Below, piece by piece: positions 29,006 to 48,376 of a stretch of DNA of 48,376 nt (the stretch's first letter is position 1; every line of letters begins with the position of its first letter). Where the stretch lies: the NCBI GenBank assembly GCA_039111535.1, contig JBCCIM010000020.1:1-48376 (forward strand). Direction: 5' to 3'. A program made the position numbers and the translations under genes. The notes beneath the pieces were generated by a model. It was not told the origin of the DNA. It ran no database searches and saw only the letters and a program-made list of their open reading frames with translations. The stretch comes from Bacteroidota bacterium (lineage in GTDB: Bacteria > Bacteroidota > Rhodothermia > Rhodothermales > JAHQVL01).

Positions 29006-31177
29006 ATGTTACGCAAATCTGTTATCGGATTTTGTCTGCTACTGGTACTCGTCAGCGTTGGTTTGCTGGCGGGGCCGGAGTGGGGAGATGCTTCCAGTCA
29101 CCGTGAAGCACCTCTTATTAGCAATGATCCACTGGCGGATAATACCGACCTGTATGCATTTCGATCACCAGACGATCCGAATACAGTAACCATTATCGCC
29201 AACTACATCCCGCTCGAGGTCCCCGAAGGCGGGCCGAACTATCACACGTTTGGCGAAAATATCCGGTATGAAATCCATATCAAAAACCAGACATCTGTTG
29301 GGCCGCTTGGCAGCGCAAAAGATGATATCACGTACCGGTTTACATTTGACCAGGTGAACGAAGATCCAACCACGTTCTTCAACATCCGCCTGGGCAAACA
29401 AAACCTGAAAACAACCTACACGCTTGAAAAAAGCACAGATGGTGGAGAGTCCTTCACCACAATCCTTTCCGACGGTATTGTACCGCCGAACAACATCGGC
29501 CCTCGCTCTATCGAAGGTGGAGCCGGCCTGGGTACCGACTATGCCACACTGGTTGAAAATGCCATCATGACGGCATCCACTGGCGAAATGGTATTTGCCG
29601 GCCCGCGTGATGACGCATTTTTTGTAGACCTCGGCGGCATTTTTGACCTCGGCCAAACGCGTAGTGCGTACGGTGCAGATCCGTCGAACTCAGACTATGC
29701 GCGTGACGCCGTAGCCGGGTTTAATACCCACGCCATTTCGCTCAAAATACCGATCGATATGCTTCAGAAAGACGGTAAAAGCGTCAGCGAAGCAGAGAGC
29801 ATTCTCGATCCGGATTTTGTGATTGGTGTGTGGGCCTCTGCAAGCCGGCCGCAGATCCGGACCCTTTCTACAACAGGGGAGAAGCCTGAGTACTCTGGTC
29901 CCTGGGTTCAGGTGTCACGTCTTGGTATGCCACTGACCAACGAGGCAGTGATTCCAATCGGCGAAAAAGACCGCTGGAATGCTGTAACACCGTACAGTGA
30001 AGCAGAGCAGTCCTTCTACCCTTACTTCGCCAACCCAGAGCTGGCTTTGTATATGGATGACAGCCAGTTTGGCGGCGCTGTGCCGGCCTTGAGTGCGCTG
30101 CGCGTCCAGTCGATGTCGTATCCCGCAGTTGGGGATGTTGATGATGACGGTGTTGCCGGGTTTGACTTCCGGAATACCAAAGACGGTGTTTATGAACTTG
30201 CTGAAGCCGGCGTTGACCTCTCGGGTACTGCTTTCGCTGTGCCGCTGAGCCCAGGCCTCGCTGCGCCGGGCATGCCGCGCCTCTCGGATATCTTCCCGAT
30301 TTTCTACTATGGCGTGCCGAATGCCATCCCGTACCAGCTTGCCACCGGCAAAACCGGCGGTCCATTGAGCGCCGGCAAGCCATTTATCCACAACTTCCTG
30401 CCCATCACGCAGGATGCAGAAGGTGTGTTGTATGGTGGGGATATGCTACGCCTGAACATGGCGACACCGGTCACAGAACGCGGTACCTCTGAGTTCATGA
30501 CCTATGCGTCGCAGGGCTTGATTCGTGCGGCAGTACTTGGCCTCGTTGGAGACCCGTATAACACAACGGCAGACCTCGAAGCCATTCCGCACATGGATGG
30601 CTTCCCAAATGGCCGCCGGCTTGAAGATGATGTGACAACCATCGAATTGCAGGCCGTAGGCGGACTTGTATTAGCCGCTGTTGGGTTACCTTTCGACGAC
30701 GCAACCGCAAGTGATTACTCCGATCTGGCTTCTCCGGCACTGCTGGCTGAGCTTGGCTACAACGCCGGCCCAGTTGCCAACGATGTACCGCTGGCTGCAA
30801 GCTTCCCTTACCAGGCAGACCCGCACAACGGCTACGACTACGTCAAGCAGTTGACTGCGGCTGATCCGAATATGGAGCCTGTCGGGATCAACATCGGGGT
30901 AGGGGTACCAGATGCGTTTATGCTCAATCAGAACTACCCGAATCCATTCAATCCGAGCACAACCATCGAATACCAGGTGTCGCGTCCTGGCAATGTTGCC
31001 ATCCGCGTGTACGATATCCAGGGCCGTATGGTAGATACGCTGGTTGATGGAGACCATGCAACGGGGCTTCATTCCGTCCAGTGGAATGCAGCGTCCCTGG
31101 CAAGTGGTACCTATTTCTACCGGATTGAGGCTGCCGGCAAATCTGTGCAGACCAAAAAAGCCATTCTGGTGAAATAA
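29006..31177 (+). CDS. DUF4331 protein with type IX secretion C-terminal sorting domain
   Basis: A 723-residue exported protein. A signal peptide (VIGFCLLLVLVSVGLLAG) leads into DUF4331: SSHREAPLISNDPLADNTDLYAFRSPDDP. The last about 85 residues are a T9SS type A sorting domain (NQNYPNPFNPSTTIEYQV, IRVYDIQGRMVDTLVDG, ASGTYFYRIEA and a KKAILVK end), which directs it to the cell surface. This domain is the best phylum marker in the left part of the window. A strong AAGGAGGT ribosome site lies 7 bases upstream, unusual for Bacteroidota and a hint of high expression. The function of DUF4331 is unknown. Confidence 0.92.
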   Translation: MLRKSVIGFCLLLVLVSVGLLAGPEWGDASSHREAPLISNDPLADNTDLYAFRSPDDPNTVTIIANYIPLEVPEGGPNYHTFGENIRYEIHIKNQTSVGPLGSAKDDITYRFTFDQVNEDPTTFFNIRLGKQNLKTTYTLEKSTDGGESFTTILSDGIVPPNNIGPRSIEGGAGLGTDYATLVENAIMTASTGEMVFAGPRDDAFFVDLGGIFDLGQTRSAYGADPSNSDYARDAVAGFNTHAISLKIPIDMLQKDGKSVSEAESILDPDFVIGVWASASRPQIRTLSTTGEKPEYSGPWVQVSRLGMPLTNEAVIPIGEKDRWNAVTPYSEAEQSFYPYFANPELALYMDDSQFGGAVPALSALRVQSMSYPAVGDVDDDGVAGFDFRNTKDGVYELAEAGVDLSGTAFAVPLSPGLAAPGMPRLSDIFPIFYYGVPNAIPYQLATGKTGGPLSAGKPFIHNFLPITQDAEGVLYGGDMLRLNMATPVTERGTSEFMTYASQGLIRAAVLGLVGDPYNTTADLEAIPHMDGFPNGRRLEDDVTTIELQAVGGLVLAAVGLPFDDATASDYSDLASPALLAELGYNAGPVANDVPLAASFPYQADPHNGYDYVKQLTAADPNMEPVGINIGVGVPDAFMLNQNYPNPFNPSTTIEYQVSRPGNVAIRVYDIQGRMVDTLVDGDHATGLHSVQWNAASLASGTYFYRIEAAGKSVQTKKAILVK

Positions 31178-31313
31178 TTCCCCGGTATGCTGCAAGCAAA
31201 CGTCCATCCCCGCCGCGCCCACAGGCTGATTCCCCGGTCAGCAGCGCGGTGGGGCATGGGGCATCACAACATTCAGATACATCGATCCTATCAATCTGCA
31301 TTCCTTGCTATCC

Positions 31314-32627
31314 ATGAACGCAAAATCACTCGTACAACGGAGCGTTGCGCTCCTGCTTTTTCTAATCGTAATTGGTGGTGCCTTTTACGGTACCCGTATG
31401 CATCAGCAGGCGCCTGAACCAACCGCTACGCCGGTAACGTCCGTGGCCTGGTCAACAAAAAGAACAGACGCAATCAGCACCCTTGAAATGCGGTTGCGCA
31501 AAAAACCATCTGATACACAAAGCAGCATCCAACTGGCAGAATTGTATCTACAGGAAGCACAACGCTCGTTGCAAGAAGCGTATTACCTGCCGAAAGCGCA
31601 GGACGTACTTGACAGTATTTTAGCACGCGATAACGATGATTTCTCAGCCCTGACGTTGCAGGCCTCATTGTACAACACCTTACATCAATTTGAAAAAGCA
31701 CGCGACATTACGCGGCAGCTTATTGCCCGCGGTAATGAAACAGGCTATATCTACGGTATTCTTGTGGATGCGCTTGTTGAATTGGGTGCATACGAAGAAG
31801 CTGTTGTAGCGTGTGATCGGATGATCGCGCTGCGTCCCGGTATCTCTTCCTACTCACGCGCTGCGTATCTGCGAGAGCTGCATGGGGATGGTGATGGGGC
31901 GATAGAAGCGATGAAGCTGGCGGCAGAAGCCGGCGTAACCGGCGAAGAGGACCGCTCCTGGGCACTTTATCAGCTCGGACAGCTGTATCTCGGGAACGAT
32001 GACCTGGCCAGCGCTGAAGTAATTTTTAACGGCATTCTTGATGAGACTCCCTACTACGCGTATGCATTGGGTGGACTCGCACAGGTGGCCCTGCAGCGCG
32101 GCGATCTTGCAGCGGCTCAAAAGGGATTTGAAGAAGCATATGCATTTGTGCCGGCAGACGAATTTCTCGAAGGGCTGGTTGAGGTACAGCTTGCGCTCGG
32201 CGATCCCGAAGAAGTGCGTGCGCTGGAAGGCCGGCTTGCGCAAAGCTATCGCGATGCAGATGCCATGGGAGAGAATGTACGGATGGAGTACGCTGACTTC
32301 CTCGTTGACATCGAAAAGGACCTCGAACACGCCCTGCAGCTTGCTCAATTGGAGCAAGAGCGCCGGCCGAATCACATGCACGCCCTAGAGACCTACGCAT
32401 GGGCCTTGCACAAAAATGACCGGTCTGCTGAGGCGATTCCCTACATCGAGCGCGCCATGCGGTTGGGCACAGGTGATGCGATGGTCCATTTCCGGGCAGC
32501 CCACATTTACCAGGGCGCCGGCGATCCCGATATGGCGGATCTTTACTTTGAATCAGCCCTGGATGCGAATTTGCACATTGAGAGTCCGTCTGCGGCTGAA
32601 GAGGCAAAAGCGTTATTGGCTGGCTAA
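31314..32627 (+). CDS. TPR-repeat membrane-anchored protein
   Basis: A 437-residue protein from ATG 31314 (a TTG at 31305 is possible). An N-terminal helix (SVALLLFLIVIGGAFY) anchors it, followed by six or more TPR motifs, for example AELYLQEAQRSLQEAYYLPKAQDVL and YQLGQLYLGNDDLASAEVIFNGILDETP. It is 136 bases downstream of the DUF4331 gene; DUF4331 and TPR genes are often neighbours, frequently with a HupE/UreJ-like membrane gene, which is absent here. It probably scaffolds or processes the exported DUF4331 protein; this is inference. Followed by a strong terminator. Confidence 0.8.
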   Translation: MNAKSLVQRSVALLLFLIVIGGAFYGTRMHQQAPEPTATPVTSVAWSTKRTDAISTLEMRLRKKPSDTQSSIQLAELYLQEAQRSLQEAYYLPKAQDVLDSILARDNDDFSALTLQASLYNTLHQFEKARDITRQLIARGNETGYIYGILVDALVELGAYEEAVVACDRMIALRPGISSYSRAAYLRELHGDGDGAIEAMKLAAEAGVTGEEDRSWALYQLGQLYLGNDDLASAEVIFNGILDETPYYAYALGGLAQVALQRGDLAAAQKGFEEAYAFVPADEFLEGLVEVQLALGDPEEVRALEGRLAQSYRDADAMGENVRMEYADFLVDIEKDLEHALQLAQLEQERRPNHMHALETYAWALHKNDRSAEAIPYIERAMRLGTGDAMVHFRAAHIYQGAGDPDMADLYFESALDANLHIESPSAAEEAKALLAG

Positions 32628-32687: not shown

Positions 32688-33090
32688 GCCCAATAATGGG
32701 GATTAAGGGTTCAAAACACTTGTCAACCGGTTTTTTGTGCTTTCGTATTTCTGTACTTCCGGTTTATGCTACCGTGGTATATTCGCATTTATCCCATTAT
32801 CGCAAAGAATGCCTGCCTAACACGCTTGGCAGTCTGTAAGTGCCGAAATACATCAACCGGCATTCGGCACTCGAAAATCGGCATTAAATTCTACAGTCAT
32901 GATGGCTTGATTCGATTTTTGTAGTGATATGTAGAGGAATGACTGACAGGAGACACGTTATTAGTTAAGATTTAATCCAAATTAGGATCCAAAGCACTTG
33001 TAGAGCTGTAAGCAACTTCCGATCTTACGTGTAAAGATTGCACATACCCTCGATTACACCTGGTATCACATAAATTTTGGGAGTGAAAGA
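32688..33090. other. Intergenic region before the truncated desaturase
   Basis: About 400 bases without a supported gene; promoter DNA for the desaturase is expected near its end. A CCGGCATTCGGCACTCG/AATCGGCATT simple repeat lies around 32858-32885, similar in wording to the stretch before the tRNA. No riboswitch is recognised. Confidence 0.35.
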
Positions 33091-33219
33091 ATGGCGAACG
33101 CAGAAGTGCGCACCCACCCAGTACTAGGCAAGCAACCGGAAAAAGGCACCTGGGACAAGGTGTCGATGACTTTCATCATCACCTACCACGTTGCTTTGTT
33201 TATTGGGTACATCTAGTCA
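33091..33219 (+). pseudogene. Truncated N-terminus of an acyl-CoA/fatty-acid desaturase at the sequence junction
   Basis: ATG 33091 opens MANAEVRTHPVLGKQPEKGT then WDKVSMTFIITYHVALFIGYI and a stop. The tail before GYI is the typical start of membrane fatty acid desaturases (short cytoplasmic leader, then TFIITYH entering helix 1, with a conserved His). A full protein would continue for about 250-300 residues. The base composition changes at the point where the protein stops (about 33198-33205), so the gene is cut, not naturally short. Confidence 0.6.
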
Positions 33220-33275
33220 AGTCTTTTGTGTACCCTTGTGCGTTTACTAAATTTAGAACAAACAAGGAGTTTCAA

Positions 33276-33440
33276 ATGAAACCAACAGAAGAACCAGATT
33301 ACAAAGCTTTGTTTGACCGAATGGAAGTTTTGATAGACCGTCTCTACAACAAGCACAAAGTTCACCGCAAAAAACGCCGTAAAAAATACCACAAATTGCT
33401 GCACAAACAGCTCAAGTTCTTGCGTGCACAGTTAGAGTAG
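33276..33440 (+). CDS. Small very basic hypothetical protein (54 residues)
   Basis: MKPTEEPDYKALFDRMEVLI followed by a long basic run (KHKVHRKKRRKKYHKLLHKQ) and LKFLRAQLE. It is preceded by a clear AAGGAG seven bases before the ATG and followed immediately by a hairpin. The charge pattern suggests a helical nucleic-acid- or membrane-binding peptide, but no family is recognised. It is the first gene after the composition switch. Confidence 0.5.
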   Translation: MKPTEEPDYKALFDRMEVLIDRLYNKHKVHRKKRRKKYHKLLHKQLKFLRAQLE

Positions 33441-33510
33441 GATCGTTCTGCGTCTCGGGCACCTCGATACAAAATTTATTGCAGTTGCAATAAATTTCAC
33501 TCGGTGTCCG

Positions 33511-33559
33511 GGATTGCTCTGGTTTTAAGCTAGGGAAATCCTGCTTATCGAGTAGCTGG
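33511..33559. repeat. TCTGGTTTTAA...ATCGAG repeat, copy 1 (degenerate)
   Basis: GGATTGCTCTGGTTTTAAGC with downstream TTATCGAG aligns with copies 2 and 3 but is shorter. The bases before it (TTTCACTCGGTGTC) also resemble the bases before copy 2 (ATTCACTCCATGTC). Confidence 0.5.
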
Positions 33560-33626
33560 AATAAAACTTTATTTGCAAATTCAATCTTAATTCTGCATAC
33601 CGAGATGAAAATTCACTCCATGTCTA

Positions 33627-33684
33627 AGATTATTCTGGTTTTAAAATAGAGAGAAGCTTCGGTCATCGAGCGTAGCCGAGATGA
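33627..33684. repeat. 58-bp direct repeat, copy 2 (left of the MNT-HEPN pair)
   Basis: Begins AGATTATTCTGGTTTTAA and ends TCATCGAGCGTAGCCGAGATGA. It agrees with copy 3 at about 48 of 58 positions, in the same orientation. TCATC and GATGA give a short palindromic end. Confidence 0.7.
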
Positions 33685-33790
33685 AAGAGCAAAGGGAAAG
33701 AATATGAATTGAGCTGTTCTGGTTCCACAGAAAAATGGCTTGTTTTTACAAAAAATTTTGTAATACTGTTATTTTAGGCCTTTTCTGAAA

Positions 33791-34144
33791 ATGATAACTG
33801 ATGAACCAATCCAAAATCTTAAAATACTAGATACAACTTTGATGGATGAGTTTATTCATCTAATAATTCAAAATATAGCTCCAGAAAAAATAATTCTATT
33901 TGGTTCCTATGCTTATGGAGAACCGAATATGGAAAGTGATATCGATTTATTTATCATATTGAGAGAATCTCAAATTCCAAGATACAAAAGAGCGAGACAG
34001 TTAAGAAAAGTTTTCAGAAAATATAGAAATTTGGAATTTGATTTTATAATTTATACAGAAGATGAAGTCGCTGAATGGAAAGATGTAGATTTATCTTTCG
34101 TAAATACTGTCTTAAAAAAAGGTCGGTTGGTTTATGAGAAATAA
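33791..34144 (+). CDS. MNT-type minimal nucleotidyltransferase (antitoxin)
   Basis: A 117-residue nucleotidyltransferase with the GSYAYGEPNMESDIDLFI core (GS-x9-11-DhD metal triad; third Asp near FDFIIY). Such proteins pair with HEPN toxins and neutralise them, in characterised cases by AMPylating a toxin tyrosine. The stop overlaps the HEPN start by 11 bases, so the two are co-translated. AT-rich codon use differs from everything left of 33.2 kb but matches genes to the right. Confidence 0.88.
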   Translation: MITDEPIQNLKILDTTLMDEFIHLIIQNIAPEKIILFGSYAYGEPNMESDIDLFIILRESQIPRYKRARQLRKVFRKYRNLEFDFIIYTEDEVAEWKDVDLSFVNTVLKKGRLVYEK

Positions 34145-34526
34145 AAATAACCTTGTGCAAGCATGGCTAAATAAAGCGGATAAAGATCTTTTAACAGCAA
34201 AAAGAGAGTTTTCTTTTGAAGATCCTGTAATTGAATCAGTCTGTTTCCATTCCCAACAAGCTACCGAAAAATATATTAAAGCGTATTTGGTTTATAAAGA
34301 CATACCATTTCCAAAATCACATGATATAGGAAAATTAATTGATTTATTAGATCAAAATGAAAAAGAACTTCACGAGTATAAAGATATAGCTGATACTCTA
34401 ACTGACTATGGTGTAGAAATTAGATATCCTGATATAAATGACATTCCTGAAAAAGAGGAAGCGAAAGAAGCATTAGCAATAACAATAAAATTTCGAGAAT
34501 TAATAACCAGTAAAATTAGAAGTTAA
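34134..34526 (+). CDS. HEPN domain protein (toxin partner of MNT)
   Basis: A 130-residue HEPN protein: WLNKADKDLLTAKREF, VCFHSQQATEKYIKAYLVY and the end-motif YGVEIRYPD typical of the MNT-associated HEPN family. It does not show the canonical R-x4-6-H RNase motif, so its toxicity may be weak or need a different active site; the ERYP/EIRYP tyrosine is the site AMPylated in related pairs. The start lies within the last codons of the MNT gene. Confidence 0.88.
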   Translation: MRNKNNLVQAWLNKADKDLLTAKREFSFEDPVIESVCFHSQQATEKYIKAYLVYKDIPFPKSHDIGKLIDLLDQNEKELHEYKDIADTLTDYGVEIRYPDINDIPEKEEAKEALAITIKFRELITSKIRS

Positions 34527-34641
34527 AGAATAGGAATCATATCTCAAAAGAACGCTTTTAAGAGCATCAATCTCGCCCATCACCCGTAGCGACTGATTGT
34601 ATCAGTCGTACGATTGAATCTGCCATAGCTGCCAATGCCCG

Positions 34642-34699
34642 AGATTTTTCTAGTTTTAAGATAAAGAGAAATCTTGTTCATCGAGCGGAGCCGAGATGA
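34642..34699. repeat. 58-bp direct repeat, copy 3 (right of the MNT-HEPN pair)
   Basis: Begins AGATTTTTCTAGTTTTAAGA and ends TCATCGAGCGGAGCCGAGATGA. With copy 2 it brackets about 1 kb containing only the toxin-antitoxin pair. It ends 3 bases before the end of the TPR gene. Confidence 0.7.
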
Positions 34700-34701
34700 G
34701 T

Positions 34702-36729
34702 TTATTTACATCTCTTCGGATTGCGATCCTTGCGGTTGCTTTCCCTCTCGACAATATCCTTAGAGCTTATCATATGCTGCCAAGACTTACCGATGGGAGT
34801 CGCTAGGGCAAGGAACTCATCCATATCCTTTATGCATACATTGCCGATTTTCCTACCATTTCGGGATATACGGTAGACCTGCTTTTTGCGAATTCCATCC
34901 CTATAACCTAAGTTGATGACAACTTCTTTGTTTTTGATTTTTAAAACACGGCCTATGCGAGGGATCTTGCTGGAAATCGTTTTTGCGAGCCTGACTGATA
35001 CTTCGCTGACGTAGTTTTGGCTGGAGGAAAGAAAGCTAATCTTTTTTAGGATTTGCCCATCTTGCCTGTCGTAGAGAACGAAGTTTACCTTGAGTTCATT
35101 GCCTTGCAAAGAGTATGTACCATAACCTACATAGCGTATCTTTTCTTTGTAAAGGCGACCTGCGTCTAAATTGATATGGTTGAGAATATCAGGAGAATAA
35201 AAGACTCCTTGGGTATGCTTGTATTCCGGTTTCGCTTGGCGAATTTTCTCTTTCAGAGCTTTCTCTTCTGTATCCGATAGAACAGAGATGTTGGGCATGA
35301 GACTGATAGAAAATTTGATGGAGTTGGTCAACACAAGCGAGGTATCTGGGTAGTTCTTGAGAAAGTTGTCTGGTTGCAAGTCAAAGAGAAAGATCTTAGG
35401 TGTATTGCGGATGCCACGAGAGATTTCACCATCCAGAGTTGTGTAACCTTCTCTATAGGAGAGACTATTCTTACGGTAGCGAAGGGCTCGTTCCAAACGG
35501 TTGTGTATTTTGATATTACGTGGTTCGTCGTTACGAATTTTCTTCAACAGGTGGATCATCTCTTGTAGATACCCGTTGCGGTAGTAGTACTGGGAAAGGA
35601 ATTTGCGCAATTGGCGGTTGTCTGGGATGAGTTTGCGGCTGCGCATCAAGCTGTAACCGGCTTGGCCATAGCGGTTGTTATTACTCGCTGAGCGATTTTG
35701 CCACAAACGATATTTCCCTAGATTGTTGCGTAACCAGTGGTTGGCACTCAAGTTTTGCAAAGAAAAACTTTCCGCAGAGTAACGACCAATTTCATCCAGG
35801 TCGTTGATACGTAGTACTTGTACATAGCTTTTGATCGCTGTGGAGTGGGAGCCTAGCTTTTTCGCAAGGTAGGCGTTCAAATAGTGCAACTCGCCATTTT
35901 CTGGGTACTTCTGCAACAAATCTTTGCACTGTTGTTGTGCATTGGCATACTCTTCGAACCACATAAAGGTCTGCATTAAGAGAGATTTGGTTTTGTCACT
36001 TTCTTGGTTTAGGGCAAGAGAGATGAGTAGATTCGATTGTGCCTGGTCAATTAGTTTTTCTACTTTGGTGGAAGGAAAGAGGCTGACTGCTTCTTGTAGG
36101 CTGATCTTCGCATACTCACGAAACAAATCGGGGTTTTCGGGTTCTAGGCTGGTAAGGTTTTTGAGGATTTTTTTGGCTCTACGGAAATTGCCGGAACTTG
36201 CATTGACTTTTGCGTAGAGCAACTTGAATTCGGTATTGTTGACAGTTTTGCCTTTTGCATCTTCCAGCTTACGTAGAGCCTGCGCATAATTCTCTTGCAT
36301 GAGATAGATTTCTATTCTTGCTAGCAATAGGTGTGAGTTATAGGGTTTTTTACGTAAGTTTTTGTTGAGCATTGTTAGGCTTTTGCGGTATTTTCCCTCT
36401 AATGCCTGGAGCTTGGCAACACCTGCAACAGCTTCCATGTTTTTGGGTTCTAATTTTAAAATTTTGCGAAATGCTTGCAGGGCTTTCTTATTGGCTTCTA
36501 TTTTTATAGAGCAACGGGCGACACCTAAAAGAGCCTTCAAAGAAGAGGGGTTGACCTGTAGGGCGTTTTTGTAGTGAAACAATGCTCGGTTGTAGTTTTT
36601 GCTTTGGTAGAGCTCATCGGCTTCTTTTAGGTATTTGTAGATATTGTCTGCGTGAACAGGTCCGTTTAGAGTCAGAACTGCTAGGAGAAGTAGAAAGATA
36701 GCTAAGAATTTATTGGTTGTTGGGAACAA
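34702..36729 (-). CDS. Exported TPR protein with FlgT-like C-terminal segment
   Basis: A 675-residue protein starting at TTG 36729, the only start before the signal peptide (NKFLAIFLLLLAVLTLNGPVHA), and overlapping the preceding gene by 20 bases. Residues 30-300 hold at least six TPRs (AALFHYKNALQVNPSSLKALLGVA-type). Residues 430-560 are a beta-rich domain like lipoprotein/TolB-like assembly proteins (FLFDLQPDNFLKN, RYVGYGTYSLQGNELKVNFVLYD). The C-terminus has EVVINLGYRDGIRKKQVYRI, the FlgT-C/SH3-like form found in envelope proteins. Last gene of the five-gene operon; likely periplasmic or outer-membrane. The function is unknown. Confidence 0.75.
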   Translation of the reverse strand: MFPTTNKFLAIFLLLLAVLTLNGPVHADNIYKYLKEADELYQSKNYNRALFHYKNALQVNPSSLKALLGVARCSIKIEANKKALQAFRKILKLEPKNMEAVAGVAKLQALEGKYRKSLTMLNKNLRKKPYNSHLLLARIEIYLMQENYAQALRKLEDAKGKTVNNTEFKLLYAKVNASSGNFRRAKKILKNLTSLEPENPDLFREYAKISLQEAVSLFPSTKVEKLIDQAQSNLLISLALNQESDKTKSLLMQTFMWFEEYANAQQQCKDLLQKYPENGELHYLNAYLAKKLGSHSTAIKSYVQVLRINDLDEIGRYSAESFSLQNLSANHWLRNNLGKYRLWQNRSASNNNRYGQAGYSLMRSRKLIPDNRQLRKFLSQYYYRNGYLQEMIHLLKKIRNDEPRNIKIHNRLERALRYRKNSLSYREGYTTLDGEISRGIRNTPKIFLFDLQPDNFLKNYPDTSLVLTNSIKFSISLMPNISVLSDTEEKALKEKIRQAKPEYKHTQGVFYSPDILNHINLDAGRLYKEKIRYVGYGTYSLQGNELKVNFVLYDRQDGQILKKISFLSSSQNYVSEVSVRLAKTISSKIPRIGRVLKIKNKEVVINLGYRDGIRKKQVYRISRNGRKIGNVCIKDMDEFLALATPIGKSWQHMISSKDIVERESNRKDRNPKRCK

Positions 36730-38779
36730 AATAACCTGCCTTCGATTTTCCTATGATATTTCGATAGGATACATCCACTCGTATGTCCATGTATTTGCCT
36801 GCTAGATCAGAGGCCGTTTTGGTACGGTATGAGATAATGTATCTTTTGTCTCGTTTAGATCGGATAAAGGAGTATAGTTTTTTTTCCTTTTGGCTACCAG
36901 GAACCTTGAGAAATAACCCTCCGGTTTTTTTAGCCATATTCTTATACCGTTCTACAGCTTCTCCTTCTCCTTGCAAAGAGAGAACAATGATGGGAATAGA
37001 GTGTGCGTTGGCATATTGGATGTTGCGAATCATACTGTACTGTTTGAAGCTTCCTGGCAACTCCTGTCCAGAAACTAATAGGATAACCGCTCTAGGTCCT
37101 AATTGGTTCATAAGAGAACTGATTCCGTCAAAAATACCTTTTCCCAAGTTAATATTAGACCTTTCGGGAGGGGATTTGCGGATCTTAGAGTATACATCTA
37201 AAATAGAATGGCCGAATTCATACAACTGGACAGAGTCCTTACCAGCTCGGATGACATTGACTTGGTCCTTGACCGTGAAAGAATTGAAAAAGTCACCTAA
37301 GAAGCTCGCTAAATTGCCGGAGATGTGTTGGATGCTCGTACTATTTTCAAAGACTAGAGAAACGCTCAATTTGTCGTTAAAACGCTTCATATCCGCCTGG
37401 CCTACCAAAGGATAGATATTTTCGTTTTCAATGATACGGAAGGCACTTCTTCCTATTCCTGTAAGGTCTTGGTTTTTACGGTTTTTCACACGCATGAATA
37501 CAGAAATGTCAGGAAAGCGGTTTAACTCGATTTTTTCAATGAATACGTTTAAATTGGAAGTAAGCATGTTGCGCGGGGCAAACATATCGATACGGTGGCG
37601 GGCGTAGTCAATGGTATACAGTGTTCCGGTATAGTCGTAAGCACTGGAGAAAGGCCGCAAGAACTTGCGGTACTTGCGGCTATGGTCCATAAACGAGCTA
37701 AGTTTGCTCCATTTGTCCTGATCCGGCTCATAGATAAGCAAACCAGCGTATTCATCGGCGACATATACCTTTTTACCGTGAATTTTAATAGAGCGCGGTT
37801 TTTGCAAACTGGGATGGCTGATATCAGCTATATAATTGCCCTCTGAATCAAACCTGACGATACGGCGGTTTCCCTTGTCTACAACCCAGATCGTGCCATC
37901 TTCGGCAACGGATAGACCAGACGGAGAGTAGAGCTTTCCATCTCCTTCCTTGCCAAACTCTTGGATAAACTCACCGGTAAGGTTGAACTTCTGGATACGG
38001 TTGTTGCCGGTATCCGCGATGTAGAGCTTTTCATCGGGAGAAATCGAGATACCAGCAGGTCCAATGAACTTACCTCTTTTGCTCCCTTTGCCCCCAAAGC
38101 GTTTCTGAAAATACCCTTTGGTATTCAAGATATATACGTAGTTAGAGGCAAAGTCACTGACAAAGAGATGCTTTTTGTGAATTGTGAAAAACAGAGGTCC
38201 GGTAAAGGAGCGGGCAAATCCACCTTTGTAATTTCCTACGGGAAAACCATTGGTATCAAATTTAACTATATTGGCCGAACCGAAAGACAGTACGTAGAGA
38301 TTGCCAATATCATCTACCAAGGCATCGGTGGGGTTGCGGAAGCGGTAGCTGCGAAAACTATCTCCGGTGATTTTATTATAGAATGTTAGAGGGTGCTCTT
38401 TGCCCTCGCCTGCAATGAGCATGCGTAAGACTTCTCTACGGTTCCTCCAATAGGGGTTGCGTGAGTCTTGGTCGAGAATGATGAGTTCGTTGAGGCTTTC
38501 TTGCCATTCACCGGTGAGGTAGTAGGTATCGGAGAGTAATTTGCGCGCCAGGCTAAAGCGTTCCATAATCGAGAGGGAAGCGATAAAATTCTCCCTTGCT
38601 GCACCATACTCACTGCGGTGGAAATAGATCAGACCTTTTCTGAAAAATGTTTTGGCTTTGTCTTCTCCTCTTTTGAAGTCAGGCAGCTCATCTGCTGTTA
38701 GGGAGCTATAGCAGAGAAGAACGACAAAGAAAAGAAGGAATGGTATGTTTTTTTTTATGTACTGCATGGTGTTACGCAT
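36710..38779 (-). CDS. Exported NHL-repeat protein with degenerate VWA-like domain
   Basis: A 689-residue protein (signal peptide NIPFLLFFVVLLCYSSLTA). Residues 40-100 are TPR-like, 145-400 hold about five NHL repeats (for example GKFIGPAGISISPDEKLYIADTGNNRIQKF) forming a beta-propeller, and 420-610 resemble a VWFA-related domain. Its metal site is altered: the usual DxSxS reads ENSTS (477-482) and the later Asp-Gly is SGQE. It probably binds a ligand or partner outside the cell membrane rather than a metal. It is 7 bases after the HAMP-like gene and overlaps the TPR gene, so it belongs to the same operon. Confidence 0.75.
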   Translation of the reverse strand: MRNTMQYIKKNIPFLLFFVVLLCYSSLTADELPDFKRGEDKAKTFFRKGLIYFHRSEYGAARENFIASLSIMERFSLARKLLSDTYYLTGEWQESLNELIILDQDSRNPYWRNRREVLRMLIAGEGKEHPLTFYNKITGDSFRSYRFRNPTDALVDDIGNLYVLSFGSANIVKFDTNGFPVGNYKGGFARSFTGPLFFTIHKKHLFVSDFASNYVYILNTKGYFQKRFGGKGSKRGKFIGPAGISISPDEKLYIADTGNNRIQKFNLTGEFIQEFGKEGDGKLYSPSGLSVAEDGTIWVVDKGNRRIVRFDSEGNYIADISHPSLQKPRSIKIHGKKVYVADEYAGLLIYEPDQDKWSKLSSFMDHSRKYRKFLRPFSSAYDYTGTLYTIDYARHRIDMFAPRNMLTSNLNVFIEKIELNRFPDISVFMRVKNRKNQDLTGIGRSAFRIIENENIYPLVGQADMKRFNDKLSVSLVFENSTSIQHISGNLASFLGDFFNSFTVKDQVNVIRAGKDSVQLYEFGHSILDVYSKIRKSPPERSNINLGKGIFDGISSLMNQLGPRAVILLVSGQELPGSFKQYSMIRNIQYANAHSIPIIVLSLQGEGEAVERYKNMAKKTGGLFLKVPGSQKEKKLYSFIRSKRDKRYIISYRTKTASDLAGKYMDIRVDVSYRNIIGKSKAGYFVPNNQ

Positions 38780-38786
38780 TTAAGCT

Positions 38787-39653
38787 CTAGGTGAATTTCT
38801 CAGGAATCTTTGAGATTTTAGTACTTAGCCTCTTTATATTTTCGGCTTCTTGCTGGATATTTTCAATCAGATCTGGTAAAGATTTTTCAACTAGAGAGGA
38901 GGTGAGAGAGAAGTTTTCTTGCAAATGCTCTAACTGTAGGCTCAATCTCTCTAAATTTGTCAGAGCAGAGGTATTGAGAAAGGAATTTGGTTGCAACATC
39001 ATTTGTTTGTATTTGCCCAATAAATTTTCAAGTGTCATTTGCAAGTCCAGTTGGAATTGGTAGAGAAATTCTTGTAAAAACTGCATCGACTCTTCTGGGT
39101 TCTCTTTGCGCTTGGCTACTTCTAAATTGATTTTGGCAACTTGCAACAAGGACTGTAAGTTTTCCATATCGAATTTGGTTTTTTGGTCAAAGATTTTACT
39201 CGGACGGTGCAGTTCCGTTTGGATTTGTTTCACATCCCCCTGCAAGTTTTCGGTCTTTTTTTGGTTTTGCTCACACTGCTGTAAGACAGTTTGCTTGAGT
39301 TCGGAAGAGAAGCCTACCTTTTCGACGATTGTCTCTGAAGTGCTTGTGAGTTCTTGGCAAATCGACTGTAGGGTCTCCAATTCGTCGTTGCGTGATTCTT
39401 TGACAGCCTCTAGGATGGTGTTGATCGCAGCTGCGGTTTCACGCCAGAAGCTGGGCATCTCTTCGCCATCAATTCGTTCTTGGAAATCCCCTATTTTGAC
39501 CCGCCCGACAATTTTTTTGAGCTGTGTTTCAAAGCTCAAATTGCGTTGTAATTCTTTTTCGCTCTCTTGTAGATCGTTGCCTTCTCGGATGAGCTGTTCT
39601 CCTTCTTGTAAGAAGGGATTTTTGCCTATCGTATGTGCTTGGGGTTGGTTCAT
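38787..39653 (-). CDS. Cytoplasmic coiled-coil protein with HAMP-like segment
   Basis: A 288-residue protein with no membrane segment. Residues 45-85 (KKIVGRVKIGDFQERIDGEE, then SFWRETAAAINTILEAV) have the HAMP pattern (I..GDF..RI....SFW...AAIN..L) found before the signalling part of chemoreceptors. The rest is long coiled coil (about 95-285). The conserved receptor tip that contacts CheA/CheW is not seen, so it is not a normal MCP. It starts inside the ParA gene (ATGA overlap) with AAGGA upstream and probably works with the CheA-like protein and ParA. The function is unknown. Confidence 0.6.
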   Translation of the reverse strand: MNQPQAHTIGKNPFLQEGEQLIREGNDLQESEKELQRNLSFETQLKKIVGRVKIGDFQERIDGEEMPSFWRETAAAINTILEAVKESRNDELETLQSICQELTSTSETIVEKVGFSSELKQTVLQQCEQNQKKTENLQGDVKQIQTELHRPSKIFDQKTKFDMENLQSLLQVAKINLEVAKRKENPEESMQFLQEFLYQFQLDLQMTLENLLGKYKQMMLQPNSFLNTSALTNLERLSLQLEHLQENFSLTSSLVEKSLPDLIENIQQEAENIKRLSTKISKIPEKFT

Positions 39654-40438
39654 GAACTTTCCTTGGAGCGGTATTTGCCTTCTTGTGCGATCACTTCTTT
39701 GGCAAGAGAACGAAAGTCGCGCGCACCTTTGCTTTGGCTAGAGTATTGTAAAATGGTCTTGGTAAAGGAGGGACATTCTGCTAATTTGATGTCTTCACGG
39801 ATGTAGGTGGAATAAACCAATTTGCCAAATTTGGTTAGCAATAGATCGAGAACTTCCATCGTATGCTTGACCTCTGGATCTATGCGTGAGGGCAAAACAC
39901 CTGAAATGTGAAGTTCCGGGTTTAGCTTTGCTTTGATCGCTTGGATGGTCTCTAACAAACTGATGACACCGTTTAAAACTAGGTAGTGTGCTACAATGGG
40001 GATTAGCAATTCATCCGCAGCGATGAGGGCATTGAGAGTTACCAGGTTGAGACCAGGGGAACAGTCGAAGAGTACATAATCATAGTATCCTGGTGCCAAT
40101 TTGCCAAACTTCTCTTTCAAAATCATTCCTTGGCTGGCGTGTTCACGCATCTGCTGGGAATGCCTATTGGGGACTTTCATATTGGGGATGATGTCTAAAT
40201 TCGCTGTTTTCGTTCTTTTGGCTAGCCTAGGAATCGCTTCCCAACCTATCGACAGGTCAAATAGACCTGGATCGTTGTACATACGGTTTAGGCCAAACCA
40301 GATCGAAGCTGAACCCTGGGGGTCTAGGTCGACAAGCAATACTTTTTTCCCTTGTTCGGCAAGAGCTGCTGCCAGGTTCACTGCGGTGGTCGTTTTGCCA
40401 CTGCCCCCTTTATGATTGTTAATAACAAATCTTCTCAT
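39650..40438 (-). CDS. ParA/MinD-type ATPase
   Basis: A 262-residue deviant-Walker ATPase: NNHKGGSGKTTTAVNLA (signature Lys plus P-loop), VLLVDLDPQGSAS and DYVLFDCSPGLNLVTLNAL. Such proteins position plasmids, chromosomes or, as ParC-type proteins, chemosensory clusters. No ParB or parS-like repeat is visible, and the operon contains CheA-like and HAMP-like genes, so a role in placing a sensory cluster is the best guess. ATG has GGGAG upstream; the stop overlaps the next gene (ATGA). Confidence 0.88.
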   Translation of the reverse strand: MRRFVINNHKGGSGKTTTAVNLAAALAEQGKKVLLVDLDPQGSASIWFGLNRMYNDPGLFDLSIGWEAIPRLAKRTKTANLDIIPNMKVPNRHSQQMREHASQGMILKEKFGKLAPGYYDYVLFDCSPGLNLVTLNALIAADELLIPIVAHYLVLNGVISLLETIQAIKAKLNPELHISGVLPSRIDPEVKHTMEVLDLLLTKFGKLVYSTYIREDIKLAECPSFTKTILQYSSQSKGARDFRSLAKEVIAQEGKYRSKESS

Positions 40439-40513
40439 TTTCTCCCAACTGATTGCGGAATGTGTTTCTCTGTAAGGGAACTTTTATCCCTTAATTCTGT
40501 AAAATAGTTTTTC

Positions 40514-41722
40514 CTAAGAAACTATATCGAGTAAAGTGACTGCATTGTCTTGGTACATCGCTTTGCCATAAGAGGAAATAGCAACATTGGGATTCGGATC
40601 TTGTTGTTGTATATGCTGCCATTCCCCGTTGTAAAGCTGCATAGATTGTACTGCAATTTGGTATGCTTTTTCTCCTTGGCGAAAGCTAAAGGTCAGCTCT
40701 ACCTTCTCTGGTCTATCTTTTTGCAAGTAATCTGGTATATGGGCCGATTCTTTGAGGCTAAAGCCAGACGTATGCTTTTCTACCCGATATACTTTTTCGA
40801 GTGATAGGGAAAAGTATTCCGAATTATGGTTCTGGAAAAGGAGGTATTTTGCTCTTGTGGTTGTTTTGTTCGCTTTTCCACGTTTCGCACCTTGTTTTTG
40901 TAAAAGTTCTGTTAGAGTTTCTTCTGCCTTTTGCCAATCTGTGTGTGTAAGCAGGGAAAAAGAACCAATTTCACCACAGCTTAGATCTAGGGTATGTGTT
41001 TCATTGGTCAGGCAAAGCAAAAACTTATGCGGTAGGGGAGGGTAGTCTGGACTGAGATGATTGTCTAAATCTAGGTATTCTAAATCCTGCAAGCTATCGT
41101 TGTTTAAGATACAACGGATCGATTGGATGAGGTAGCTAGGAATGGCAAAGGCTTCTCCAGAGCTGGTGAACAGTTGCAGGGCTTCCCCACGCGTCCTGTC
41201 AGCTTGTTGGTTTTGCAATTGCAAAAGGGTTTGGCTAACCTGTTGTAAATTTTCAAGCGCCTTTGATTGTTGTGTCGATGCTGTATTCGAAAGGTCTTCT
41301 TGGATAACTGCTAATTGGTCGAGTATCGGGCTAAAATCTGTCTTTGCCTGTTCTTCTGTGGCAGCCGGTTCCGCAATTGTCTCTTTTTCAACAACCACAC
41401 TCATACCTTCCTCTCCTCGCTGTTCCATGTTGTGTAAGATAAGCCCTAGTTCGTAAGCGTACTGGTCCAACTCTGGTTCTAGGCTTGGTACATCGGCTTT
41501 TTGTTGGAGAACTTGTTTGATTTTGTTTTCGATTGTGAGGGACTTATTCTCTAAGGCCTCTAAACTGTACAAGCTGCTCGTTCCATGTATGATGTGGATG
41601 GTACGTTGCAAACTTTGTAAGATTTCGGTTGGGTTCTTACTGATTTTTAGATTGCCGCTTAGCCTACGGATTTTTTGTAAGTCTTTCTGTGTCTGTTGGA
41701 TGAAGGTTTTGATAAAATTCAT
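40514..41722 (-). CDS. Kinase-less CheA-like scaffold: Hpt domain plus two CheW-like domains
   Basis: A 402-residue protein. Residues 20-75 are Hpt-like, with RTIHIIHGTSS: the phosphoacceptor His43 is kept, the following Lys is His46. A long linker (80-180) has no kinase sequence. Residues about 181-265 (LQLFTSSGEAFAIPSYLIQSI) and 290-402 (YLLFQNHNSEYFSLSLEKVYRVEKH, ending NAVTLLDIVS) are CheW-like. CheA normally has dimerisation and HATPase parts between Hpt and CheW; both are absent here. First gene of a five-gene operon with ParA, HAMP-like, NHL/VWA and TPR proteins. It could be a phosphate receiver or scaffold fed by a kinase elsewhere. Confidence 0.65.
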   Translation of the reverse strand: MNFIKTFIQQTQKDLQKIRRLSGNLKISKNPTEILQSLQRTIHIIHGTSSLYSLEALENKSLTIENKIKQVLQQKADVPSLEPELDQYAYELGLILHNMEQRGEEGMSVVVEKETIAEPAATEEQAKTDFSPILDQLAVIQEDLSNTASTQQSKALENLQQVSQTLLQLQNQQADRTRGEALQLFTSSGEAFAIPSYLIQSIRCILNNDSLQDLEYLDLDNHLSPDYPPLPHKFLLCLTNETHTLDLSCGEIGSFSLLTHTDWQKAEETLTELLQKQGAKRGKANKTTTRAKYLLFQNHNSEYFSLSLEKVYRVEKHTSGFSLKESAHIPDYLQKDRPEKVELTFSFRQGEKAYQIAVQSMQLYNGEWQHIQQQDPNPNVAISSYGKAMYQDNAVTLLDIVS

Positions 41723-41754
41723 GGCTTGTATGGAGAAGAAAACTGGGGAATTGT

Positions 41755-41788
41755 TAGTAGTGGGACGTACAGAGTTACGTCCCTACTA
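41755..41788. repeat. Hairpin repeat TAGTAG-GGGACGTA/TACGTCCC-TACTA
   Basis: TAGTAGTGGGACGTA and TACGTCCCTACTA are complementary apart from a two-base bulge, loop CAGAGT. It lies between the DUF3332 gene and the CheA-like gene on the minus strand. No T tract follows, so it is more likely a structured repeat or processing site than a true terminator. Confidence 0.55.
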
Positions 41789-41796
41789 AAATGATA

Positions 41797-42399
41797 TTAG
41801 AACGTTCCTTTGTTATAGGAGTAGTTTAAATCATTATAATCTTTGTAGTCTACAACTTTGGAAGATTGCAGTTTGCCGTCTTTTGCCATTTTGATCAGAA
41901 CTTTAGAGCCAATTCTCTTAGAACTCATCTTTACTTCTTCTAACTTACCATTGTTTTCTTGGAAGATTTGGTTTGGTTTGTTTTGTAAGAAAATGTATTT
42001 AGAGTCTTTGTTACCATTCTTGATATGCATTTCCATTTTCTTTCCATAGTCTAGGTACACTAATTTTAAAGTTTGGCTACCTTTGCTCATGGTCTTTACA
42101 TACATTCCGTTCTCATCGTACTCGTTGAAGCCAAGCAAATTGTTGCCAGTCCAGAACTCAATGAGGTTTAGAATGACTGCATCAATGAACATTCCAATAC
42201 CATAAACCGGTAGGATGTAGAATACATACATTACTATAGTTTTTAGAAATCTACCTACTAAGTTTTTCCCACCAATCGAGTCATTGAATTGGTATATTTT
42301 GCGTGTCAAAGCAAACTTGCCAAAACAATTTGCTGTACTAATGGTGATAAAACCGAACATTAGAACTAGGACTAAAGCCTTCTTTAATTTTTGTTTCAC
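41797..42399 (-). CDS. DUF3332 lipoprotein, copy A
   Basis: A 200-residue protein taken from the GTG at 42399 (VKQKLKKALVLVLMFGFITI). A textbook AAGGAG lies 10 bases before it, inside the longer frame that begins with GTG 42420, so the longer start is unlikely. The signal peptide ends in STANC, then GKFALTRKIYQFNDSI and two membrane helices, EFWTGNN and a KDGKLQSSKVVDYKDYNDL region near the end. It is clearly similar to the next gene upstream, in motif order and in wording. DUF3332 is found in Bacteroidota, vibrios and spirochaetes; function unknown. Confidence 0.85.
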   Translation of the reverse strand: MKQKLKKALVLVLMFGFITISTANCFGKFALTRKIYQFNDSIGGKNLVGRFLKTIVMYVFYILPVYGIGMFIDAVILNLIEFWTGNNLLGFNEYDENGMYVKTMSKGSQTLKLVYLDYGKKMEMHIKNGNKDSKYIFLQNKPNQIFQENNGKLEEVKMSSKRIGSKVLIKMAKDGKLQSSKVVDYKDYNDLNYSYNKGTF

Positions 42400-42457
42400 T
42401 AGAAAGATTCTCCTTTTCACTCAGTTTGAAACTTCATCTATGTTTGGCAATGTTTTT

Positions 42458-43051
42458 TTAGAAGACTTTTGAGTTATATGCATAGGCTAATTCTCTGTAA
42501 CCTTGGTAATCTACTACTTTAGAGGATTGTAATTTACCGTCCCTTGCTAGTTGCAATACTACTTTGGAACCTATCTTTTGTGCTTTTATGCTGATAGCCT
42601 GTAGTTTGCCGTTTTGCTTTTGGAAAAGCTGGCCAGGATTCTCGCGGAACAACCAAAATACCTGTTTTTTCTTTCCTTCGGAAAATTCTAACTGTAGGGT
42701 CTTACCGTATTCGCTGTAGGTCAAACATAGGTTTTGCTTGCCTTGCTGGAGGTTTTTGACAAAAATCCCCTTATTGTCGTACTCGTTATAGGCAATGGGG
42801 TTTTTGTCTGTCCAGAACTCATAGACATTGAGGAAGAGGTAATCGATAATGCCGATAAAACTGCCAATGGAAAAGGTTACAACAAAGAACAGAGTAGAGC
42901 GGATTGTTTTTCCGAGACGTCCCTTGCTACCGGTAGAGTCAATAAGTTCATAGGTCTTACGCACTAAAGCAAATTTTCCGTGGCAATTGCTGAGCATTGT
43001 AAGGGAAAAAAATAGCAGTGCTAGGCTAATGGGTTTTTTTAGGTGTTTCAT
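42458..43051 (-). CDS. DUF3332 lipoprotein, copy B
   Basis: A 197-residue paralogue of the previous protein. The signal peptide MKHLKKPISLALLFFSLTML ends in a lipobox LSNC, then HGKFALVRKTYELIDSTGSKGRLGKTIR, a hydrophobic stretch, YEFWTDKNPIAYNEYDNKG and DGKLQSSKVVDYQGYRELAY. AAGGA precedes ATG by 8 bases. Only 58 bases separate the two copies (37 if the upstream GTG of copy A is used), so they arose by tandem duplication and then diverged. Confidence 0.85.
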   Translation of the reverse strand: MKHLKKPISLALLFFSLTMLSNCHGKFALVRKTYELIDSTGSKGRLGKTIRSTLFFVVTFSIGSFIGIIDYLFLNVYEFWTDKNPIAYNEYDNKGIFVKNLQQGKQNLCLTYSEYGKTLQLEFSEGKKKQVFWLFRENPGQLFQKQNGKLQAISIKAQKIGSKVVLQLARDGKLQSSKVVDYQGYRELAYAYNSKVF

Positions 43052-43063
43052 ACTAGTGTCCTT

Positions 43064-45202
43064 TTACAACTTTCGAAATTCATTACAACTACGTTTGCTA
43101 CCAAGTTTGCACGATCTTTGCAATAAGGATTTGTATTTTGCTTCACTTTTTCCTACTTTTAGTTCAAAATATGCATAGGAGCGGTATACTTGCGGATTTG
43201 TTGGACTCTGTTGGGTCAGGATATCATAGTTTCTCTTCGCATTCGGATAGTCACCCAGACGGGAATACGAATTGGCAATTGCCAGGCGGCAACCTAAAAA
43301 TTGGGGATACAATTTTAAGGATTTCTCAAAGTAGGAAATCGCTTTTTGGTATTTCTTACCGGCATATTGTACATAGCCCTTGTTGTATTCCAAGATAGTA
43401 TGCCTCCCATATTTTCTCTCACCTTTAGAGATGAATTTCAAAGCATCTTTATAGCGACCTGCATCGGCAAAAGTCTTGGTCAAGAAAGTGATGCTACGAA
43501 AACGTCTTGGATTTAAGTTTAACGCTTTGTTGGCATAGGCATAGGCTTTTTTGAAACTCTTTTCTCGCACGAATACTTGGCTTGCTGCGAGGTTGATATG
43601 GATATCGCTTTTTCCCAATTCTAGGGCTCGGCGAAAGTAGTGGTTGTCGGAATTGCGAGAAACTTTCGGAGATAGTCGGAAGAGACTCAAATAAATGGAA
43701 GCGTCATTCTTATCATACTCCAACGCTTTGTAAATAAAGTTAGTTGCTTTTTTGAGGTTTTTCTTGATAAACTTTTCGACAAAGGACATGCACTGGTTGG
43801 CTTGTGATAGTTTTTCATCAATGTCATAGGCTTTGCGGCAGTACTTTTCGGCGAGTTCCAGACGGGACTCACTGTAGACACCATATGTTTTATCGTATTT
43901 GAAAAGAGCACGGTAGGATTTAGCTAAACCTACATAGGCGAGAGCATACGAAGAATCCTCTTTGATCGCTTGCTTATAGAGCTTTATGGCTTCTTCGATG
44001 CTAAACAGGTCATTGAGAGCAAATTTCTTTTGTGCTTGGATGTATATGCTAAAAGCCTTGCTATTTTCCGTAGCATGGGTGACGCGCTCGATAGCTTCTT
44101 TTTCCTTCTTGGTTGCCTTAATACGAAAGTTTTCCAGCGTCGCGTAGGATACCTTTTCCATCACCTCATCGTAATCATCGGATTTTGGTCTGATGATAAA
44201 GCTCTTCTCCAAGCCACCTTTGGCGACATTGTACAACTTACAGGTAATTAAAATTTTGTTTTGGATGCGTTTGAAGCTACCCTGTAAAACGGACTGTACA
44301 TTGAGACGTTTTCCCAACACAACTGGGCCTAATTTGCTACTGCCCTTTTCTTCTAAGATGTTTTTGGCATTTTGTCCAGGTACGATATTGAGAGACTCGA
44401 CTTTGTTTAGAGCTACTTCTAAGGTTTCCGGTAAGCCATCTTTGTACAATAACTCGTCCTCAGGATTTGTACTGGTGATAGCAAATGGCAGAATCGCGAC
44501 GCGTTTTTGGTTTTTGTACAGTGCAGAGACGTCACCCGAGAAACTTTTGATTTGGTCTGCATTTGGTGGTGGATTCGATAGTTTGTAGCCGACATAAGCA
44601 TTCTCAGCAAAAAAAGCCGAACCAGCCTTGGTGCTAGACTTGAAACTCCCATTCGTTTTGACATTCAAGTGTGATAGTGCTACACTTCCAGAGAGCTCCT
44701 TGCCGTCTTGGTTGAGCATTTGTACGGTAATCTTGTCCACCTTTAGCACAGAGCTGACATAGGGTTTTTCCAATAGATCTGGTCTGTTTTTTGCCAGTGG
44801 AGAAGGCAGGGGGTTTTGGATAGAAATTTCTTGTGGGTTGATGAGTTTTAAAACAATCCGAGCTACCGACTCATTTTTGACCTTGCCGTCTGTTTCGACT
44901 TTTTTGCCGGCTAAAATCCCTGTAAAATCAAAGCCAAAGGCAAAGGACTTACTCTCTGTAACGTCGATTTCTATGGTTTGTTTGACAGCACTGGTATTGT
45001 AGGGGGCACCTTCCCAGACTTTCTCTAAGAATTGGTTGCCGTCGGCGAGAACATAGCCAATGTAATCCCTATCCCCAGCGATGTCGAATTGGGTAAAACC
45101 CTTGATCTTCTCTTGCGCTTGTCCCCCTTTGAGTGCTCTATTGTCGATTAGGGAAGAGCAGTGGAACAAAAATAACAGCAGAACGAATAAACTTCTAAAC
45201 AT
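43064..45202 (-). CDS. TolB-like/TPR lipoprotein
   Basis: A 712-residue lipoprotein (MFRSLFVLLLFLFHCSS, lipobox LFHC). Residues 20-210 form a beta-rich N-terminal domain of no recognised family. Around 230-340 a TolB_N/FlgO-like module reads RVAILPFAITSTN, LYKDGLPETLEVALNKVESLNIVPGQNA and VLQGSFKRIQNKILITCKLYNV. The C-terminal half has at least eight TPR repeats (IEEAIKLYKQAIKEDSSYALAYVGLAKSYRALFKYDKTY-type). The TolB_N-TPR combination is common for signalling proteins often found beside class III cyclases. AGAGGA precedes ATG. It likely shares a transcript with the DUF3332 genes, 12 bases downstream. Confidence 0.78.
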   Translation of the reverse strand: MFRSLFVLLLFLFHCSSLIDNRALKGGQAQEKIKGFTQFDIAGDRDYIGYVLADGNQFLEKVWEGAPYNTSAVKQTIEIDVTESKSFAFGFDFTGILAGKKVETDGKVKNESVARIVLKLINPQEISIQNPLPSPLAKNRPDLLEKPYVSSVLKVDKITVQMLNQDGKELSGSVALSHLNVKTNGSFKSSTKAGSAFFAENAYVGYKLSNPPPNADQIKSFSGDVSALYKNQKRVAILPFAITSTNPEDELLYKDGLPETLEVALNKVESLNIVPGQNAKNILEEKGSSKLGPVVLGKRLNVQSVLQGSFKRIQNKILITCKLYNVAKGGLEKSFIIRPKSDDYDEVMEKVSYATLENFRIKATKKEKEAIERVTHATENSKAFSIYIQAQKKFALNDLFSIEEAIKLYKQAIKEDSSYALAYVGLAKSYRALFKYDKTYGVYSESRLELAEKYCRKAYDIDEKLSQANQCMSFVEKFIKKNLKKATNFIYKALEYDKNDASIYLSLFRLSPKVSRNSDNHYFRRALELGKSDIHINLAASQVFVREKSFKKAYAYANKALNLNPRRFRSITFLTKTFADAGRYKDALKFISKGERKYGRHTILEYNKGYVQYAGKKYQKAISYFEKSLKLYPQFLGCRLAIANSYSRLGDYPNAKRNYDILTQQSPTNPQVYRSYAYFELKVGKSEAKYKSLLQRSCKLGSKRSCNEFRKL

Positions 45203-45399
45203 GGAATTCCTCTAAGTAGTCAGTGATTTTACTCTTATATATGGTTTTTTGTATCGGACTCATAAATAAAATTTCTTTCGACAATGAGTGGGATATGTAA
45301 CAAATTTATGGATTTTTCCTAAAGAGTAAAAAACGTAAGTAATGGATAAAAGTTTCTGAGCCATTACGTATTGTGCAAGCATAAATCTCTAATTCAGAC
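45203..45399. other. Intergenic stretch upstream of the TolB-like/TPR lipoprotein gene
   Basis: About 200 AT-rich bases between two minus-strand genes. It should hold the promoter of the lipoprotein operon. I see no clear terminator or operator. Confidence 0.35.
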
Positions 45400-46203
45400 T
45401 TAAAGGTAGGAAAGTAGTCTATCATTCTCCGTCAGCAGTGGGTAGGTTTCGGCGAATTGTTGGGTAGTTTTTTTCAGAAAAGGATCGAGGTAACTGATTC
45501 CCTTTTTTAAGATGCTTTCTGGAATGGAGCCATAATAACATGCTGCGATTCCTCCTGCCATACAAGCAATGGTATCACTATCACCACCAATAGAAATAGC
45601 TTTGCGAATGGTCGATTCAAAGTCATTGCCTTCTAAAAAACTGATAATAGCCTCGGGAACTGAACCTTGGCAACTTACATCAAAAGAATATGTTTTGCGA
45701 ATTTCATCGATGCTTCTCTGCAAGGAATAGGAGAAACGTTGTTCTATTTCGGATTGGATAAAGCTCTTGGTCTGTTTCTGTCTGGCATAAAAAATACATA
45801 GGGCAATTGCCTGTGCTCCCTTGATCCCTTCCAGGTGGTTGTGGCTTACCTCGGCACTTTGCTTGGCATGCAGTAGAACCTCATCTTCAGTCTCAAAAGC
45901 AAAGGCGATGGGACTGACTCGCATAGCGGAACCATTGCCATAACTGTTATAAGGTTTTGCATGTTGCAGCCTCGCCCATTTTTGGAAGCGGCCACCATAA
46001 CCAGCTCTGGGGTAACGCTTGTAGAAGTCTTGATAGGTTTCTCTGTAGGGTTTTTGGTTTAAGATTGCATACGCTGTAGCAATGGTTAAAACAGAGTCAT
46101 CGGTAAAAGATGTCCTCGGTGGAAAGAGGGGAAAGTTTTCTAACTTAGTGTTTCTTCGTTCAAAACTCGAACCTAAAATGTCACCAATGATTGCACCTAT
46201 CAT
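45400..46203 (-). CDS. ADP-ribosylglycohydrolase family protein
   Basis: A 267-residue enzyme of the DraG/ARH family, which removes ADP-ribose from proteins or nucleic acids. The metal-site sequences are kept: FTDDSVLTIATA near residue 35 (Ser in place of the usual Thr of TDDT) and IGGDSDTIACMAGGIA near 225. It starts MIGAIIGDILGSSFE with an AGGAAGGG ribosome site. No ADP-ribosyltransferase partner is visible nearby. Confidence 0.9.
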   Translation of the reverse strand: MIGAIIGDILGSSFERRNTKLENFPLFPPRTSFTDDSVLTIATAYAILNQKPYRETYQDFYKRYPRAGYGGRFQKWARLQHAKPYNSYGNGSAMRVSPIAFAFETEDEVLLHAKQSAEVSHNHLEGIKGAQAIALCIFYARQKQTKSFIQSEIEQRFSYSLQRSIDEIRKTYSFDVSCQGSVPEAIISFLEGNDFESTIRKAISIGGDSDTIACMAGGIAACYYGSIPESILKKGISYLDPFLKKTTQQFAETYPLLTENDRLLSYL

Positions 46204-46277
46204 AAAGCCCTTCCTACAATAATACTCTTATTCATAATGATACATCTAGAGCATGAGAAAGCAAGCCTTTACTGCTA

Positions 46278-46778: not shown

Positions 46779-46924
46779 GAATAGTGCCATCCTTTGTTGT
46801 ATTAGGGATTTGTTCGAATATTCTATATACAAAGTTCCCTCCTTACAGCGTGTCTTAAAAATAGGTCTATTCTTACGCGTAGGATAAGCTGCAAGAGTCT
46901 ATAGTTAGGTTTTCAGACAGGCTC

Positions 46925-48250: not shown

Positions 48251-48255
48251 TTCGT

Positions 48256-48375: not shown

Positions 48376-48376
48376 G

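Follow-up and report, generated by a model that had tools for sequence, protein, structure and literature searches.

The window corresponds to contig C20 in its entirety (48,376 bp), one of the 355 contigs of a draft genome of 6.59 Mb, and is composed of two parts which meet inside a host gene for a membrane fatty-acid desaturase. We interpret the right part as a horizontally acquired block from an unrelated bacterium, inserted in this gene, and we give this real insertion, which we prefer to an assembly chimera, a probability of about 0.65. The features around the junction are the following.

29006-31177, + strand: DUF4331 protein of the host, carrying a type IX secretion sorting domain (Pfam; orthologues)
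31305-32627, + strand: host TPR protein, the last complete host gene left of the junction (Pfam; orthologues)
32846-32894, no strand: copy of a host interspersed repeat (other contigs of this genome have about 20 more)
33091-33207, + strand: 5' part of the host membrane desaturase gene, 39 codons, reaching into the first transmembrane helix (N-terminal profile; alignment)
33207/33208, no strand: left junction, where host DNA gives way to foreign DNA (end of protein homology and composition change)
33208-48376, no strand: foreign DNA of 15,169 bp or more, which reaches the contig end (composition; no match elsewhere in the genome; tested proteins without orthologues in relatives)

The GC content is 0.525 at 1-33000 and 0.406 at 33451-48376, and the motif GCCGGC occurs 2.9-3.0 times per kb on the left and 0.07 times per kb on the right, as the first-pass annotation had described when it contrasted a GC-rich left half packed with GCCGGC with an AT-rich right half. 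The tetranucleotide profiles of the two halves are also sharply different: the correlation of their z-scores is 0.04. When the same z-scores are compared with those of other contigs of this genome, the left part reaches correlations of 0.68-0.84 (samples of at least 7.7 kb), the right part 0.00 to 0.15. We also scored 1.5-kb windows by a third-order Markov log-odds (foreign minus host, per 100 bases): the maximum is +0.69 in about 2,100 host windows covering 1.16 Mb of the same genome, none of which scores like the right part (+2.7 to +7.1). Since the right part itself served to train the foreign model, this gap is somewhat overstated, but the independent composition measures point the same way. 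Taken together, these measures and the Markov score demonstrate that the break is real and far beyond chance, and the abrupt switch announced near 33,200 is thereby confirmed. Composition alone puts the change point at 32884, within an AT-rich intergenic region of the host; protein homology puts the break at 33207/33208.

A generally chimeric assembly was also considered, and discarded. Foreign-like windows are few in the 1.16 Mb (L025, L010, L130 and L018), all score below the right part, and their genes are ordinary or of mobile type. Among the sampled host windows, L025:8049-10262, at the end of contig G000:C220, is the most foreign-like, and has AT-rich genes which look by eye like pentapeptide-repeat/TIR-like genes. 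Two small contigs of the same genome, L029 (G000:C340) and L155 (G000:C345), are all N in the stored sequence.

The left part belongs to the bulk genome. Orthologues of the DUF4331 protein are 77-78% identical in genomes of the same family and of the same order, and orthologues of the TPR gene are present in 14 other genomes of the order. The two genes (29006-32627) are adjacent in 14 of the 14 other genomes of the order which have the TPR orthologue. The repeat at 32846-32894 anchors the host identity near the junction. The repeat is about 30-50 bp long, with a core at about 32852-32888, and its other copies are 83-100% identical. The only tRNA of the window is at 3596-3669, and an Rfam search of the window and of contig C120 of the same genome gave nothing besides it.

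The frame 33,091-33,216 had been described as the start of a desaturase, 42 residues long, which stops exactly where the composition changes. The break of the gene at the junction is supported, the length is not: the frame has 41 residues in all, reading MANAEVRTHPVLGKQPEKGTWDKVSMTFIITYHVALFIG, then YI and a stop, and the last two residues (Y, I) and the stop codon are foreign DNA. Pfam alone gives no hit for this frame, and its identity as a desaturase comes only from the comparison with orthologues. These were found in nine relatives, with one copy per genome, and begin with a helix of the type FIVTYHLALLVALPLYL...SITAGYHR. The orthologue alignment and an N-terminal profile built from these nine sequences confirm that the frame is the start of a desaturase. 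Indeed, among 28,570 open frames searched with the profile, the window fragment ranks first (E 0.006, model positions 14-31) and a gene of contig C120 ranks second (E 0.013, model positions 54-66), each E-value being modest individually.

A Pfam search of the genome detects six fatty-acid desaturases. They were considered as six complete paralogues, which proved wrong: five are complete, and the sixth, on C120, lacks its N-terminus and corresponds to the missing half. This C-terminal part (C120:18958-19977, − strand) begins with ...TLISITAGYHR and reads ...TLISITAGYHRYYSHRTFK...; the gene continues from about 19,953-19,962 down to 18,958. It matches PF00487 with 69.3 bits, over the cut-off, as expected of a membrane fatty-acid (acyl-CoA) desaturase. 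The window fragment occurs only once in the genome, and no other copy of the N-terminal part and no full-length gene was found in the assembly. Judging from these alignments, the rest of this single-copy desaturase is on C120, so that, as the first-pass annotation had claimed, the composition changes inside a desaturase gene, which is split. Model positions 32-53 (about 22 codons, or about 66 bp) are in neither piece. The enzyme would be inactivated, since part of the first transmembrane segments is lost.

The gene order in a genome of the same family, G002, provides evidence which is independent of the desaturase. On G002:C159, the DUF4331 and TPR genes are followed, after 18 bp, by a gene 69% identical to its orthologue C120:16371-18758, and by the counterparts of other C120 genes. 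This shows that the left part of C20 and C120, read in reverse, are neighbours in the ancestral order. Both flanks of the junction are thus host DNA and contiguous in a relative, but G002 is not a perfect empty site because the desaturase is absent there: in G002 it is located elsewhere, and no relative was found with an intact desaturase at this exact site. Either the desaturase therefore joined this locus on the way to the present genome, or the other lineage lost it.

The first-pass annotation considered an assembly chimera as the most likely origin of the junction, and a very recent transfer as the second option. The half gene on C120, the adjacency in G002 and the absence of a shared 18-mer reverse this order: a real insertion is favored, and a chimera is the less likely of the two. 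In a chimera, the host sequence would run directly from C20:33207 to C120, a contig of a second organism being misjoined to C20 and the C120 tail being a second misjoin. The assembly is indeed a metagenome-like draft of 355 contigs, the composition of the donor is wholly unlike that of the host, and the genes of the foreign part are housekeeping-like with no mobility gene. The estimated contamination of 0.06 (for a completeness of 97.6%) is also compatible with a chimera, marker-based estimates being less sensitive to non-redundant contamination (PMC8201837). However, two independent misjoins would be needed, about 66 bp apart in a single gene, and the junction has no 18-mer, recurring in 1.2 Mb of this genome, that could have misled an assembler. 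Misassemblies are moreover said to be relatively rare next to mis-binning (PMC8201837).

On C120, 475 bp (about 0.48 kb) of AT-rich DNA separate the desaturase part from the contig end. With a GC content of 0.38, this tail is poorer in GC than every interior host window of that size in the sample; in second- and third-order Markov models, the tail, which is short and non-coding, scores like AT-rich intergenic DNA of the host. No part of its sequence recurs in the right part of the window, and it has no match in plasmids, in phages or in its own genome. We infer that this tail is probably where the same insert ends on the other side, and that both foreign ends belong to a single insert, a proposal made from a tail too short to be assigned by composition and having no sequence in common with the right part. 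One insertion would explain the split gene, the composition break and the adjacency of the two host flanks, all three demonstrated above, together with the AT-rich tail of C120. It is improbable that a host rearrangement instead broke the desaturase, the left part of the gene joining an old foreign island and its right part joining unrelated AT-rich host intergenic DNA, so that the two ends do not bound one insert: the resemblance of the tail to such intergenic DNA in both Markov models, and the fact that it has nothing in common with the right part of the window, fit this scenario, but it needs more events, the gap of about 66 bp between the host ends better suits one insertion, and the GC content of the tail is lower than in all the sampled interior host windows.

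In the insertion that we favor, a foreign block of at least 15.2 kb would enter the host desaturase gene at 33207/33208, and the gene would resume on C120 behind the AT-rich tail. About 66 bp (22 codons) of the target would be lost at insertion. The missing codons and the absence of a visible target-site duplication give the event the look of an illegitimate or deletion-associated recombination, rather than an insertion by a tyrosine recombinase or a transposase. The enzyme, if any, may be encoded in the unassembled part of the insert. Composition and log-odds scores both indicate foreign DNA within the host replicon, its placement in that replicon being given by the contig.

The genes of the foreign part are, from the junction to the contig end:

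33791-34526, + strand: nucleotidyltransferase-HEPN pair, type VII toxin-antitoxin-like (Pfam PF18765 and PF05168; weak MntA match below the cut-off)
34702-36729, − strand: TPR protein (profile matches)
36710-38779, − strand: NHL-propeller protein with weak VWA similarity at the C-terminus (profile matches)
within 38787-41722, − strand: coiled-coil-like protein, listed from the junction before the ParA-type ATPase
39650-40438, − strand, within 38787-41722: ParA-type ATPase
40514-41722, − strand, within 38787-41722: Hpt-domain protein
41797-45202, − strand: tandem pair of DUF3332 lipoprotein-like genes, and a TPR gene which is also lipoprotein-like (the translations show signal peptides)
45400-48250, − strand: ADP-ribosylglycohydrolase, thioredoxin-like protein and membrane adenylate/guanylate cyclase (CyaB-like tblastn matches for the cyclase)

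A 58-bp sequence, whose two copies (33627-33684 and 34642-34699) are 83% identical, flanks the nucleotidyltransferase-HEPN pair, and the tandem DUF3332 genes at 41797-43051 are a diverged pair.

This gene content is chromosome-like or island-like, not phage. The PHROGs matches of the foreign part are restricted to TPR, NHL-like, ParA and ADP-ribosylglycohydrolase families, with no phage structural or replication gene, and do not identify a prophage. The right-hand proteins tested include no integrase or transposase, and the search for a recombinase, terminal repeats or a target duplication, which would identify an integrative element or a transposon, gave none. The first-pass annotation had noted that no integrase, transposase, direct repeat or tRNA marks the junction. 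This description holds, among the right-hand proteins tested for the enzymes, from the lack of a terminal repeat or target duplication for the repeats, and from the distant position of the only tRNA.

No close relative of the tested right-part proteins was found across the collections searched, and the spirochaete-like origin proposed by the first-pass annotation is a guess. The right part has no match on any other contig of its own genome, and its tested proteins have no orthologue in relatives of the host. Searched against the genome contig collection, the HEPN protein has no relatives and the ParA-type ATPase has only matches at 36-37%, without shared neighbours. The viral contigs of IMG/VR contain no relatives of five right-part proteins. 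Plasmids give only distant matches for the ParA, NHL, DUF3332, cyclase and HEPN proteins, and none for the left end of the insert searched as DNA. Similarly, the ADP-ribosylglycohydrolase has scattered matches of at most 53% identity in 394 genomes of the host phylum. A tentative and somewhat doubtful extension of the insertion reading is that at least 15.6 kb of chromosomal-type DNA, from a distant and so far unsampled lineage and with no recognisable mobility gene, entered by an illegitimate recombination which removed about 66 bp, its composition being still unameliorated.

Horizontal islands which interrupt genes are an already known kind of structure. As in genomic islands and other recent horizontal gene transfers, the composition changes abruptly here, the genes are sporadic, a host gene is interrupted and the synteny of the flanks is kept in a relative. 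In contrast to genomic islands, the part assembled here has no integrase, tRNA target, direct repeats or conjugation genes, and its target was not duplicated but shortened by about 66 bp. The chimeric contigs of metagenome-assembled genomes, which are addressed by GUNC (PMC8201837), likewise combine two lineages on one contig and are invisible to marker-gene estimates of contamination. Unlike in such contigs, the opposite end of the broken gene was found here, cut by unrelated DNA, on the syntenic neighbouring contig.

The search for the second half of a broken gene is a simple check, which can help to tell insertions from chimeras without reads. If the window is a chimera after all, a genome estimated at 97.6% completeness and 0.06 contamination would carry 15 kb of another organism, which would mislead studies of gene content. 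If the insertion is real, the genome would hold a freshly inserted block, still unameliorated and derived from a distant lineage; no mobility machinery is visible in it, the interrupted gene can be recognised on both sides of it, and its two defined junctions would make the route of such transfers testable.
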